From NCBI GenBank assembly GCA_024220505.1, contig JAKZZE010000001.1:2542001-2606000 (forward strand): a stretch of DNA of 64,000 nt. The letters run 5' to 3'. A program made the position numbers and the translations under genes. The notes beneath the pieces are model-generated. The model was not told where the DNA came from, made no database searches, and saw only the letters and a program-made list of their open reading frames with translations. The DNA comes from Rhizopus arrhizus. Taxonomy: Eukaryota > Mucoromycota > Mucoromycetes > Mucorales > Rhizopodaceae. How positions within the stretch are numbered: position 1 is the stretch's first letter; each line of letters opens with the position of its first letter. This document shows positions 53,008 through 58,797 of the stretch, one piece after another.

Positions 53008-53671
53008 CTATTGATCTTTTGAAGGTAAAAGCTTGGGATCCTTTTCGATGACCAAAGCACGTAACCATTTAGCTTCCTTTTCAAGATCATTTACTTTACT
53101 TTCTAATTTTTCAACATAATCTGCTAATTCTTTAGCTTTCTTTTCAAGTTCTTGTTCTCTCTGTTTCTTTTTCATACGAAAACGAGCGGATGCAGCCGTA
53201 TTTCTACGTCTTTTGTCTTCTTCAGCACTAATAGGTTCATTTCCATCTTTTGATTCACTTTTCTTTTTATGACTAAAAGGACTGATAGAGTTTTCCATCG
53301 GTTTGACACCCACAGTCAGTGAGGGTGCAAGACGGGGAAGAATGGGTGGCATACCGGGAGTTGAAGGTGCAGGTGCAATATTATAATAATTTAGGTTGTT
53401 ATTATTGTTACTATTGTCATGTTGAACTATTTATTATTAGTATTGTCTATCAACTCTCTTTTTATTATTATTTACCAAGTTGTGCAATTTCCTTAAAGGT
53501 TTCCAAAAGGTTTGAATTTTCTTTTTTATCTTCAACAATTGCTGAGCCTGGAGTTGTATCAAAACTGAATTGAGCGTTAGCCCAGAGAGCTAACTCTTCT
53601 TGAAAAGCTTCTTCATTCATTTGAGTAGGTGAATCTGCATTGAGCAGATTAAGGGTCGAAATGTAAGACAT
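53008..53671 (-). CDS. bZIP transcription factor, CYS3/MetR type
   Basis: 204 residues in two exons (53671-53476 and 53426-53008, minus). The C-terminal half is a bZIP: basic region RRRNTAASARFRMKKKQREQ with the N-x-x-A-A-x-x-x-R signature, then a leucine zipper (LEKKAKELADYVEKLESKVNDLEKEAKWLRALV). The basic region closely resembles Neurospora CYS3 and Aspergillus MetR, which activate sulfur assimilation genes. The N-terminal part is acidic with LLNADSPTQM and an Asn-rich linker (VQHDNSNNNNN) made across the splice. It acts as a nuclear dimer. The Fanzor element begins 120 bp upstream of its ATG, which places that element in its promoter. The start at 53671 is the first ATG after a stop. Confidence 0.92.
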
Positions 53672-53778
53672 TCTGAAGGAAAAAGTTTCAAAACATTGAA
53701 TAAACAAAAAAAAATCCAAAAAAAAAAAATCATTTTGCTTTTTTGTTATCAGTAATTTAAACTCAGACACACATCAAT

Positions 53779-56700
53779 TAATAATCAACATAGGTTGGAC
53801 AAAGGAGAGACAGAATGTTGGTTTTTTTTTTGGGACAAATAACAATTGATTTTAAAATGTTTAACTCATCTTTTTTTGGAAAAAGCGGAAATGGAAATCG
53901 GACAAAGCAGTAATTTCTGAAACCATTGCTTAAGTTATGAATATTCATCTTCAAAATGGACAGATTTACTTAGCCCCCCACTGTGTATATTACAAAATAT
54001 GAGGTAGAATAAATTTTATGCAAAATGCTTATTATCTTATTACATTACATAAGCCGTATAGCCAATTACATTACCTGCTAGTCTATTAATTAAATAGTCA
54101 AGAAAAGCATATGACTAGTAATTACGCTGGATCGCCACAAGCTATAGCTTTGAGATGCTCCAAAGCAATTAATCAGTTTTGCTACTGTTATATATCAAAA
54201 AATTTTCATTGGTCATTAAGGATTTCAATAGAAAGTAACAGAACTTGAACAAATCTATAAACATTTATTTTCTTTCTGAAGCTTATAATAGATAATGAAG
54301 CGAAGATATAGCAATGATCCCGCGAAGAGTTCGTCAACAAAAAGAAAGACTTTAAAGAGTAAGTACCAAAATAACACATTGCGAGGTATCATGTTCCTTA
54401 CTTTTTTTTCAAAAAGTCAATTCTGATAATATATCAGTTACATCTGCTCTGACCACTTCAGTTGCTTCTGATTCACAGTCTTCTACTTCACAGGCTTTTA
54501 CTTCACAGACTCCTAGTGCTCTTCCTCCTACCTCCAAAAAGATACAGAAGAAAACAGATAAACAACTTGCTTTGCAGGACTTTAGAATGAAAGCAAAAAG
54601 CAATACAGAAAAGACATGTCCTTCTTGCGGGTTGAATACTCACTCAAGATCATCATCCAACCTTTGCCCAAAAAAGAAGCAGAAGGAACCATCTCACAAT
54701 CCTGATGAGAAAAAGGAAACTTTTGCAATCAAATCCTCCTTAAAAAATATATGTACGGGCACAAGGGTTTATGAAAAGATTGCTTCAGTAGTGGCCTACA
54801 CAACCAAAGCGATCCACGTAGGCTCACTATTCATGAACTATATTTTTTGAAGCTTTTAAACAAGGGGGAACAAGTACCAATTATTGATCATACCCTTGTC
54901 TATTCTATTTTCACTGTTGTAACTGGCAATGGCAAAAAGGTCCCTAAATACTGTCAAGATTACTTTGTTGAATTTTGCAACGAATGCCAAGTCAATGAAA
55001 CAATACTGCAATCCCTCAAGAGTATTGGATATTCGTCTGTTCTGTCTATAATGTGTAAACAATACGATGTGCTCATACACAACCATGTATATGAAAACCA
55101 TGAAAGGAGAACAACCCGCTTTTTTCTGGAAGCCTTTTCAGATATGTCTTCTCCCTTCTATTGCAAAGGATTATCAGTTGCCCAAAGAAAAGCATTCTCT
55201 CACTATGTTTATACATTAAAGCAGAAACAGCAATCAATATGGCCCTCATCTTTAGAAAGAAATCAATGTTTAGAAGAAACCATAAAGAAGATGAATGCAT
55301 TATGGAGTCGATATCAGACAATGAACTGCGATGCGGAAGACCTGTACTTCAAACCTCATGAATTCTTCAAATGGTTTTTCTATCTTCAGCAAAAGATAAA
55401 TGAGAAGGTGTATATTATGGAAGAAAAACCAGCCACCTTTGCCTCCAAGTCCTACATTTATAGGAAGCTAAAAGAACTCACGTTTACTTCAATACTCAAT
55501 AGACGAAGCTTCAAGTCTTTACAGGAACAAGTACTGCAAAGCATTAATTCAAAAATACCACTAGTGCTTGGGAAAAAATTAGAGAAGCTTGAGCCCCATT
55601 TACCTGCTCTTTTGAAATTTATTACAAGTATCCAGTCTAGAATTGAAGATGGAACATTCACGCCTGCTAAATACACGGATCGGCGAGGCTATTGCTTTTT
55701 TTCCATCTTACCTGTATACTCATTTGCGATGAAGTCAATACAAATAGATGCCCAAGCTTTCTGGCGACTGTTGCAGCAATCTGGTATTGAAGATATCCCA
55801 AAAGGTGTTAAAGATAAATCGGCTCTCTCGGACTTCTACTATAGGCTTTTTAACTTTTCCAAAATGGGATTTCGAACTCGAAAAAGCCTTTCAGAGGGGA
55901 AAAAACAATTTCAGTAAGTTAGCTTAGTTGAATTGAAAAATAAGAGCCTTAATTTAATCAAGTTATACATAGAAACATTATATATACTGATGGGTATTCG
56001 ATTTCTTTCCTTTTTTCTAGAGTGAGGAAGAAAAAACAAATAGATACTCTACTGGGAAAACAGCCTGAGGACTTCCTCGAAGATATTGAAAATGGCTGTG
56101 AAATTTGGGGAGTAGATCCTGGTGTTGCCACACTTGTAACTGCCGTCGATACATCCGGAAGGCAAAGGACTACAAGCTTGGACGAGTACTATCATCTGTG
56201 TGGCTATAATGATGCGAATTCTATACGAAAAAAGCATCAAGAACAACATAAGGCTCAGTTTTTGAAAATTTCTAATTTAAGCTCGTTGAAGACATCCAAT
56301 ATGGCAGAATTTTTAAAAGCTTGCAAAGAAAGACTAAGTTTATATGACGATATTACAAGTTACTACAATGAAAAATCTTGGTAAATAAAAACATGATTTT
56401 TTTTCACTTGTTTACTTGAGCAACATGCAAAAATCTGTGTAGGTCGTCAAAGCTGAAGTTCGAATGCTACATGAGAAAACAAAAAGGTGTTCATGAGATC
56501 TGTAAGCGCTTCATTCACGGTAGTGCCAAATACGATGAAAAAGCAACTACAGGCGTAAGAACATCTACCAAGAAAGAGAATAGATACTATCCTTCTGCTC
56601 CCATTGATCACGAAAAAAGATCCAAGAAAACCATCATTGCTTTTGGTGATGGTATGTTTGGTTCCAGCCTCCATGGAAATAAATCTGCTCCTGTACGGAT

Positions 56701-57152
56701 GATTAGGAAGGCTTTGAAAAAATATTGTGGAAAGCAGCTTGATATTTGCATGGTGGATGAATACTTAACAAGCCAAATCTGCAACAAATGCAAGACTAGA
56801 AACATAGACAATGTTGTAACCGCCAAATCAAAACGAAGAGTACATACGGTATTGCAGTGTAAGCAAAACAATTGCAATATCATATGGAATCGTGATATCA
56901 TGGCTGCTCATAACATACTGGATATATTTTTATTTGCTGCAAAAAACAAAAATCAGCGTCTTGATGCCTTTGTGCGTTAGTTAGATCCCAGTGGCCAGCT
57001 TTCCGTGTGATTGATATGACTCTCTCATACTTCTGTACAGTGTAAGTTGGTCAAGTTTTTTTTTTGGCAACCGTGTCCTAATTCAATTTTAAATTGACCA
57101 AATTTTTTTTTTCATTGGCCCAACCTAGTTTCTTTAACTGTAATAATCAACA
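53779..57152 (+). mobile_element. Candidate Fanzor-carrying transposable element
   Basis: TAGGTTGGAC at 53791 and its complement CCCAACCTA (57119-57127) form short inverted ends of about 8 perfect bp (roughly 12 of 14 with one gap). Outside the left end is TAATAATCAACA (53779-53790). An identical 12-mer lies at 57141-57152, 13 bp beyond the right inverted end. The enclosed 3.3 kb holds only the Fanzor gene. Whether the 12-mer is a target duplication is uncertain because of the 13-bp offset and the AT-rich context. Confidence 0.55.
54295..56980 (+). CDS. Fanzor (eukaryotic TnpB-like RNA-guided nuclease), one frameshift
   Basis: Four exons: 54295-54358, 54438 (or 54417)-55913, 56021-56380 and 56443-56980. 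This gives about 812-819 residues if a 1-base gap in the T run 54843-54848 is allowed for. The N-terminus is basic and Ser/Thr-rich, then a zinc motif CPSCGLNTHSR...LCP (about 54617-54670). The middle is a helical part with no named domain. The C-terminal RuvC-like nuclease has Asp in IWGVDPGVATLV (56115-56117), Glu in CMVDEYLTSQICNKC (56759-56761), a four-Cys finger (CNKC and CKQNNC) and Asp in WNRDIMAAHNIL (56894-56896). The Glu sits just before the zinc finger. The usual TnpB position (TIIAFGDG) lacks one, which matches the rearranged site described for Fanzors. Fanzor proteins cut DNA guided by an RNA encoded at the element's end. The three introns show that it is adapted to the nucleus. 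Confidence 0.9.
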
Positions 57153-57244
57153 AACTACTATCCTTCACGCACTGCTTCTCTCTCTCTCTTTCTTCGGAAT
57201 GAATTTATCCTTATTTTTTTACAGTAAACATTTTTTATTATAAT
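56981..57244. other. Right end of the Fanzor element; possible guide-RNA region
   Basis: About 147 bases between the stop and the inverted end at 57127, with two long T runs (57057-57065 and about 57102-57112) and the palindrome TCAATTTTAAATTGA (57083-57097). In TnpB and Fanzor loci the guide RNA usually comes from this position, but nothing in the sequence proves a transcript. 57153-57244 is the 3' flank of ALO1. Confidence 0.35.
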
Positions 57245-58797
57245 TTATAGTCTAGCAGAAATAGTGATTTGATTATTATTCACAACATGTCTTTTCAAAT
57301 AATCATTAAGAAAGATATTTTTGGGATCCAACTTTTCACGAACTCTTAAATATTCATTCAATTTTGGATAAGATGCTTCTAAATCCTTACGAGATTGTCC
57401 ATGTGCCTAATAAACTATTATTAAAATGAATAACTTATTACTTATTACCTTTGCCCAGTGAGGACGACCGTTGTATTCACGCATGATATCTTCATAACCT
57501 TTCCAATACTTTTTATATGGAACTGGTTTACCATAAGGTCTATACATAATCACACCAATGTAACATGTCTTACGGCCATAGGCTGGACTCAACCAAATGT
57601 CATCTTCATCTACAAATCGAATTTCAACAGGAAAGTGAACCTTGAGATCATTATTATTAATAAATTCATTCAATTTGCGTAAAGCATCTGGTCCATCTTT
57701 CCAATCAATCGCCCATTCATTTACATATTGAGGAAAGAGACAATCAAAATTGAAGACTTTGTTTGATTCATCAATAATATGAATAGGTTTACAGTGTAAT
57801 GTGTTAAACATCAACCTGGTAAGATAGGGGATCAGTGAAGTACCATAACGTGTCACATTAAGCATGGCTTGGTATATATGAAAACCATAGACCCTTTCCA
57901 TAAAATAACTTGGGGCAGATTTATATACTGGTTTCTCTGTACGATTTGCAGTCCAAACGACGCAATCATCTGTATGTGGATACCACCAAATACGCGAATG
58001 TTCGGATGAGTGAATGATAGCATCCCAATTGTTTAAAACCTCTGAAAACTTGTAGGGTTTTTGAATAGCTTCCAATTTAAAGTCGGGTTCAACCTTTAGG
58101 GTCATTCGAGTGATAATACCCAAGGCACCCAAACTACATCGTGCTGCTTCAAAAATATCTTTGTTTTCATTGGGTGAACAAAAATAAATGTTTCCATTGG
58201 CTGCAATTAATGTTAAATCCACAATCTAGATTTCAAAAAGTTATTTGAGTGGCTGAGATTAAATCGAGTTTATTTTTTTTTTTACCATTGAAGATAGGCA
58301 CTTGAAATGAGCGCCTGTTCCATGTGTAGCGGTAGCCATCACTCCAGCAACAGACTGATCAGAAATAGAGCCAAGGTTACTCAGAGAGAGACCATTCTCT
58401 CTTAATACTTTATGTAAAGTATGAAGTGACATTCCAGCTTCTACTGTCACAGTATTATTCTTCTTGTCCACATTCAAAAGACGATTCATATTGTCGAGTG
58501 TCATCATAAATCCAGAAGAACATGCTAAATCAGAAGGAGAATGTCCACTTCCTACTGCTTTCACTGGTTTATTCAATTTATTTGCCAATAAAATAATCTA
58601 AAAAATATTGTTTTAAATATTAAAAATTTTTTTTTGACAGGTTGCTTTACTACCTTTTGTACTTGTTTTTCAGTTTGTGGACTAAATAATAATTCAGGTT
58701 TACATGTAAATGTTTTTGCCCAATTTCTAAAATGATAATCATCTACTGCTATTTCCTGAAGTTCAGGCTCTAATTGTTGAAGTTCAAAGGGAGCCAT
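57245..58797 (-). CDS. ALO1: D-arabinono-1,4-lactone oxidase
   Basis: 464 residues in four exons (minus): 58797-58654, 58597-58286, 58225-57449 and 57406-57245, all GT-AG and in phase. It oxidises D-arabinono-1,4-lactone to dehydro-D-arabinono-lactone, the last step of erythroascorbate synthesis, using FAD and oxygen, in mitochondria in yeast. The N-terminal FAD domain (VAO type) has AVGSGHSPSDLACSSG, with the His that normally holds FAD covalently, and GVMATATHGTGAHF. The C-terminal ALO domain has WYPHTD and ends with RPHWAKAHG, the HWxK signature of aldonolactone oxidases, which is completed only after the last splice. Shorter than yeast ALO1 (526) but complete across both domains. The Fanzor element's right edge lies about 100 bp beyond its stop. 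Confidence 0.95.

Follow-up and report, generated by a model that had tools for sequence, protein, structure and literature searches.

The analysed window (64,000 nucleotides of Rhizopus arrhizus contig JAKZZE010000001.1) carries one member of a family of Fanzor nuclease genes that are almost certainly borne on mariner-type transposons. A D-arabinono-lactone oxidase gene nearby has its best match in Sporodiniella umbellata (89%), with Rhizopus next (85%), in keeping with a mucoralean host. Comparison of 20 copies of this one family in one genome leads us to propose, with moderate confidence, that the Fanzor acts as a homing nuclease, which would fill sites still empty of the element. To the more specific reading, that the left joints alone keep a few target bases, a record of how the empty allele was cut under RNA guidance and the mariner-type element copied into it, we give an even chance; the homing mechanism is the uncertain part of the explanation. 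The features of the window copy are listed below (window positions).

53776–53780, forward strand: left flank AATTA, with the target-adjacent motif ATTA (53777–53780, including the TA duplication) predicted from end counts
53781–53790, forward strand: scar at the left joint, where the ten bases of the right flank at 57143–57152 recur and replace the usual left terminus of the element
53791–57140, forward strand: non-autonomous Tc1/mariner-type transposon, matching the 20 fetched copies; left end shortened in this copy, right terminus AACTG adjoining TA
54295–56980, forward strand: Fanzor gene, start to stop, four exons
54295–54358, forward strand: exon 1
54417–55913, forward strand: exon 2, with a CCHC-like motif (54617–54667) and the frame break
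54843–54848, forward strand: T run in which the reading frame of the window copy shifts
55914–55972, forward strand: intron 2, acceptor corrected by homologue comparison
55973–56380, forward strand: exon 3, RuvC-I with DPG, Asp codon at 56115
56443–56980, forward strand: exon 4, with the alternative Glu codon (56759), the zinc finger, the last Asp codon (56894) and the stop
56981–57060, forward strand: noncoding stretch 3' of the gene, in which the guide RNA is proposed to start; pairwise difference between copies 0.017, no fold or Rfam support
57062–57140, forward strand: short form of the right terminal inverted repeat; other copies carry it in inverted orientation at their left ends
57141–57142, no strand: TA target duplication, right side
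57143–57162, forward strand: right flank, which the guide polarity of Fanzor and TnpB (PMC10711439) makes the predicted guide target of the window copy; the left joint repeats the first ten bases of this flank

The gene limits given by the initial annotation were borne out, with an ATG at 54295 and a stop codon ending at 56980, and so was its division into four exons by three predicted introns, all of the GT–AG type. For intron 2, an acceptor at 56020 was rejected, as it drops a stretch that homologues retain; the acceptor at 55972 is preferred because the FQN(V/I)IYTDGYSISFLFSRV stretch, common to several homologues, is then kept. The exons had also been described as assembling in phase, which they do not: the frame of exon 2 changes in the T run at 54843–54848. 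The window copy therefore does not encode the whole protein, which excludes an intact gene in the window, and this copy is a pseudogene unless the break is an assembly error. Its ranking as the best candidate in the window for a programmable DNA-cutting system thus fails for the window copy itself; for family members that are intact it may stand.

The codons for the RuvC Asp, the Glu beside the finger and the last Asp stand at exactly the bases first assigned to them (56115, 56759 and 56894). As had been noted, the canonical Glu position is empty (IIAFGDG, from 56636), and an alternative Glu precedes the first Cys of the finger by six residues (E-YLTSQI-C). The claim that the protein belongs to a special group with a rearranged site was right about the moved Glu and wrong about the group: a moved Glu together with DPG is a fingerprint of Fanzors in general (PMC10711439), and the observation is therefore correct but ordinary. 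The four finger cysteines are likewise present; the second half of the finger had to be corrected to C-x4-C, with 22 residues between the Cys pairs. The N-terminal zinc motif was also confirmed (CPSCG-x4-H-x7-C, 54617–54667) and is common to several homologues. An STSQA-type repeat in exon 2 (54455–54515 in the window) differs in repeat number from copy to copy, and the intact proteins of the family are 830 to 885 residues long.

Several lines of evidence support the original identification of the gene as a Fanzor. The Pfam domain Cas12f1-like_TNB (PF07282, formerly OrfB Zn ribbon) matches exon 4 with an E-value of 6e-8 (33.2 bits against a cut-off of 26.3); the full protein of the intact copy L013 also scores above the cut-off. 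Among solved structures, a single-sequence search gave no match, and a family-profile search ranked the Fanzor1 of Spizellomyces punctatus (SpuFz1) first (E 2e-4; 4e-4 with the corrected intron), followed by Cas12g chains (0.04 and 0.006); no chain named PpFz1 was among the profile matches at E up to 1. By hand count on the printed alignment, the Glu encoded at 56759 aligns with SpuFz1 E541 and the Asp encoded at 56894 with D606: the two residues, within VDEYLTSQIC and WNRD respectively, correspond to chain positions 935 and 1000, and the offset of D606 makes 935 equal to E541. The significant part of this alignment covers the Glu and the last Asp, not the DPG Asp. According to PMC10432273, from which the residue numbers are taken, E541, D383, N385 and D606 sit at the SpuFz1 metal ions. 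Each of the 12 intact family members retains DPG (as WGVDPG), the alternative Glu and WNRD.

The protein fits the published Fanzor pattern D-X(125,275)-[TS][TS]XX-C4 finger-X(5,50)-RD (PMC3627910), with spacing counted by hand. It departs from the stricter DPG-x(120-160)-E, CxxC-x(12,18)-CxxC (PMC10711439), which is a search pattern rather than a family definition, in having 191 residues between DPG and Glu, 22 residues between the Cys pairs and C-x4-C. The first distance (207 − 16 = 191) is unchanged in the corrected gene model because the added stretch precedes DPG. At least 12 homologous proteins were recovered at E up to 1e-3 among 8,000 candidates scored, and the 11 named ones come from Thamnidium, Cokeromyces, Rhizopus microsporus and Umbelopsis. 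The nuclease is almost certainly a Fanzor and most likely a Fanzor1, the type to which its best match among solved structures belongs; its carrier resembles mariner elements. Fanzor1 genes on mariner-like elements, and in such fungi, are already known.

The initial annotation saw the gene only and overlooked the transposon around it. This element is about 3.3 kb long and is flanked by a TA duplication; it ends in inverted repeats, and with the TA a typical left end reads TA-CAGTGCAAGAAACTAGGTTGGGCCAATG and a typical right end CATTGGCCCAACCTAGTTTCTTTAACTG-TA. Its termini read CAGT, the mark of Tc1 elements. TA duplication is a mariner hallmark (PMC3627910). The element lacks a transposase frame of its own and would depend on a transposase encoded elsewhere. 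The genome has at least 199 matches to DDE_3; with 150 scored out of 1,749 candidates, no DDE transposase could be tied to these ends. One candidate for an autonomous partner, C39:1719979, proved to be a solo right-type end beside an apparent DIRS-like element and a separate DDE_3 gene.

A search of the genome (50.26 Mb, 41 contigs) with exon 4 gave 69 matches, 25 of them near-complete at 92–100% identity; the others are fragments or relatives, many at about 33% identity. Twenty of the 25 near-complete copies were fetched for comparison. With the corrected intron, 12/20 are intact (an earlier count had been 13/20), and the window copy and 7 of the 19 others are broken. Across the 12 intact copies dN/dS is 0.29 at a mean dS of 0.052, which shows purifying selection on the family.

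This genome has been host to several Fanzor families. The diverged relatives at about 33% identity (C37:859671, C9:824428 and C13:315881 among them) include many with stops. A second Fanzor family is represented by L061 (C38:1261750–1262650) and L062 (C38:1779160–1780060); its right end is TACAGTATTTCTACTTTAAATTCAG adjoining TA, and the DNA 3' of the gene, inside the element, resembles, as read by eye, a decayed piece of an elongation factor 1-alpha gene. This second family (C38:1261490 and others) was set aside as a replication of the end analysis, given that right ends only were recognised, among about 100 of 107 pattern matches.

The two ends of the element differ in their flanks. AT precedes the TA slot at 20/21 left ends and 6/32 right ends (Fisher 2e-8). 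When only the 20 copies that retain both ends are considered, the counts are 19 left against 4 right, and the end table taken alone gives 16/17 and 5/30. That table has 67 rows, of which 47 were used (17 left, 30 right), 12 belong to a family with similar repeats and 8 were dropped as chance. Four further left ends (L009, L019, L028 and C4:341) and two further right ends (L026 and L028) were added to it; three left ends (C5:1224076, C34:545010 and C1:1478855) and one right end (C5:1224076) figure in no table. Sides were set by gene orientation in copies with a Fanzor gene or fragment. For the solo ends (C1:2065929, C4:871843, C24:510333, C39:1719979 and C41:446386) and the small element C4:341 they were set by terminal type, that is, GC or TA after CAGT, and the flank was not used.

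The family with similar repeats (TACAGCTGAAGAAAATAGG) has AT before TA in 0/11 cases. A Fanzor gene was looked for in one of its members, L060 (C34:1357320–1359910), which is 2.5 kb long, ends in repeats of similar sequence and contains small reading frames; none of its five reading frames of at least 70 codons is Fanzor-like, and a Pfam scan of two of them gave no match above the cut-off.

A mariner transposase treats both repeats alike and therefore gives no reason for a one-sided AT. The polarity of Fanzor and TnpB systems, in which the target-adjacent motif lies at the left and the right flank supplies the guide (PMC10711439), does give one, and on this basis the one-sided AT predicts a target-adjacent motif 5'-ATTA.

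The second asymmetry concerns the element bases themselves. The first eight bases are canonical at 30/30 right ends and at 9/17 left ends, and in several copies the altered left end begins with bases of that copy's own right flank. The window copy (L009) has CAATTA-ATAATCAACA-TAGGTTGG at its left joint and CTG-TA-ATAATCAACAAACTAC at its right. The prefix match between left end and own right flank is 11 bases in L023, 10 in L009, 6 in L019, 5 in L012, 4 in L018, 3 in L016, 2 in L020, 1 in L014 and 0 in the other 12 of the 20 copies. Their sum of 42 (permuted mean 8.3) was reached in 0/200,000 permutations of the right flanks. Without the two longest scars the corresponding figure is 26/200,000 (38 in a second run), without L009, L023, L012 and L018 it is 1,393/200,000, and with L019 also removed it is 22,430.

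Nine copies together have 20 deviating bases among the first nine of the left end; at 17 of these the base is the one that the copy's own target has at the same position, and the replacement is therefore mostly in register; without L009 and L023 the proportion is 6/9. L014, L016 and C4:341 were left out of this count, and the alignments of left ends to targets were set by hand (the slot of L020 reads TG). L022, L025 and C34:2276 have one deviating left base each, none equal to the target. The left end of C34:2276 begins with CTGTGC without a matching target, and in the tree this copy groups with L012, L018, L020, L022 and L009; the CTGTGC may thus have been inherited. The target 14-mer of L023 (C1:177300–185700) occurs a third time 645 bp upstream of the left end, as ATTA followed by 12 target bases, and no longer similarity between the flanks was found. 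A search for the empty allele of L015 found none: of its 23 matches, two are the flanks of the copy itself and the other 21 cover just the right half, because the right flank of L015 is the start of a repeated element.

Two other explanations of the scars were rejected. A longer target duplication made by the transposase disagrees with the mostly in-register replacement of left bases and with canonical copies, which have TA only. A mariner excision leaves a CAG footprint of terminal element bases, and ordinary gap repair after excision should likewise leave such bases rather than target bases. Truncation at the 5' side was also dropped as evidence of copying from the right: the left-truncated L010, L011, L013 and L027 have joints without target bases, and the exon 4 search favours such copies.

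The scars and the one-sided AT both fit a cut of the empty site within right-flank sequence, copying from the right and imperfect closure on the left. In the homing mechanism that we propose, the element would insert at a TA preceded by AT, and an RNA from its right end would read into the flank and guide the Fanzor to the still-empty allele, which may be that of the sister or of the homologue. This allele would be recognised by 5'-ATTA adjoining the guide sequence. The right end of an occupied site reads TGTA, so AT versus TG would tell empty from filled, and the occupied allele would be spared because the element ends in TG-TA, not AT-TA. The cut would fall inside the right-flank sequence of the empty allele; the right break end would then match the donor fully up to the break and copy the element in, and the left break end would carry a tail of target bases that meets the left repeat of the element unmatched. 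Incomplete trimming of the tail, chance pairing at its tip and extension would leave in-register target bases, at the left end only. The window copy would be an inactivated member of the family with such a scar. The longest scar, 11 nt, is shorter than the cut distance of SpuFz1, which cuts 16–17 and 20–21 nt from its motif on the two strands; other Fanzors tested cut at 9 to 19 nt (PMC10432273).

It is unlikely, though credible, that the Fanzor is instead a passenger, with the AT due to a transposase that favours such targets on one side, and the scars arising from chance breaks near insertions and gene conversion with empty alleles. Such an account draws on the restriction of long scars to two copies, on the several left ends altered without a target match and on the 14-base third copy near L023, which shows that odd local repeats occur. 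Chance breaks should nevertheless scar both ends, and the right ends are uniformly canonical; the family with similar repeats, in which a Fanzor was looked for in L060 only, also shows no preference for AT. Still less probable is a break made by the transposase, not the Fanzor, at the left joint of the occupied allele and repaired by brief copying from the empty allele. Known enzymes would suffice for this, and it too would bring target bases into the left joint, but the right end should be hit as well, the one-sided AT is left unexplained, and replacement mostly in register is better predicted by the pairing of a tail as in the homing mechanism.

A guide RNA for the Fanzor was sought in the 3' noncoding stretch. 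Folding of the candidate gave no support (z-scores −0.27, 0.14 and 0.58), and an Rfam scan of 53500–57500 gave no match at E up to 0.1. The difference between copies in this stretch (0.017) is lower than at synonymous sites (0.052), as are those of the introns (0.017–0.038, first intron model) and of the 5' stretch (0.028). That the family consists of relics without nuclease function, its motif and scars dating from earlier times or having other causes, would agree with these null results and with the eight broken copies among the 20, and is very improbable in view of the 12 intact ones, their dN/dS and the catalytic motifs kept in all of them.

PMC10432273 treats the role of Fanzor cutting as unknown and offers cutting of the sister chromosome as a possibility. 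None of the open-access Fanzor papers listed describes junction scars of this kind, as judged by titles and the starts of abstracts, and we have not seen either the one-sided AT or the left-joint scars described before. The scars would be the first junction evidence known to us for the sister-chromosome idea and would make the role of Fanzor cutting readable from genomes. One would expect any multi-copy Fanzor family to have a one-sided motif, with target bases in the end on that side. For the present family, at least 12 intact natural copies offer one predicted motif (ATTA) and one predicted guide each.

Fanzor1 proteins in Tc/mariner elements, and Fanzor1 families from Mucor, Rhizopus and Phycomyces, were reported by Bao and Jurka (2013, PMC3627910). 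Their elements resemble ours in the TnpB-like protein, the inverted repeats, the TA duplications and, in some, the missing transposase. The Rhizopus, Phycomyces and Mucor elements named in the accessible text of that paper are, however, MuDr-like with 9-bp duplications, and this text describes no left-flank motif or junction scars. SpuFz1 shares with the family the aligned catalytic Glu and last Asp, and its loci likewise have a conserved dinucleotide before the left repeat, CA there and AT here; its measured motif is CATA (PMC10432273), by analogy with which ATTA is predicted for our family. In contrast, the sequence of SpuFz1 is so remote that it took a profile to find it (E 2e-4), the N-terminal CCHC motif and the STSQA repeats set our family apart, and the activity of SpuFz1 has been measured (PMC10432273). 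PpFz1 of Parasitella parasitica is a Fanzor1 from Mucorales, as ours most likely is, and its measured motif is 5'-ATN (PMC11423790). A functional parallel to the proposed homing is the cut-and-copy homing proposed for bacterial TnpB, in which the nuclease cuts the emptied site and recombination copies the element back (PMC10432273); here, by contrast, the element is of the mariner type in a eukaryote, and the evidence comes from junctions, not from assays.
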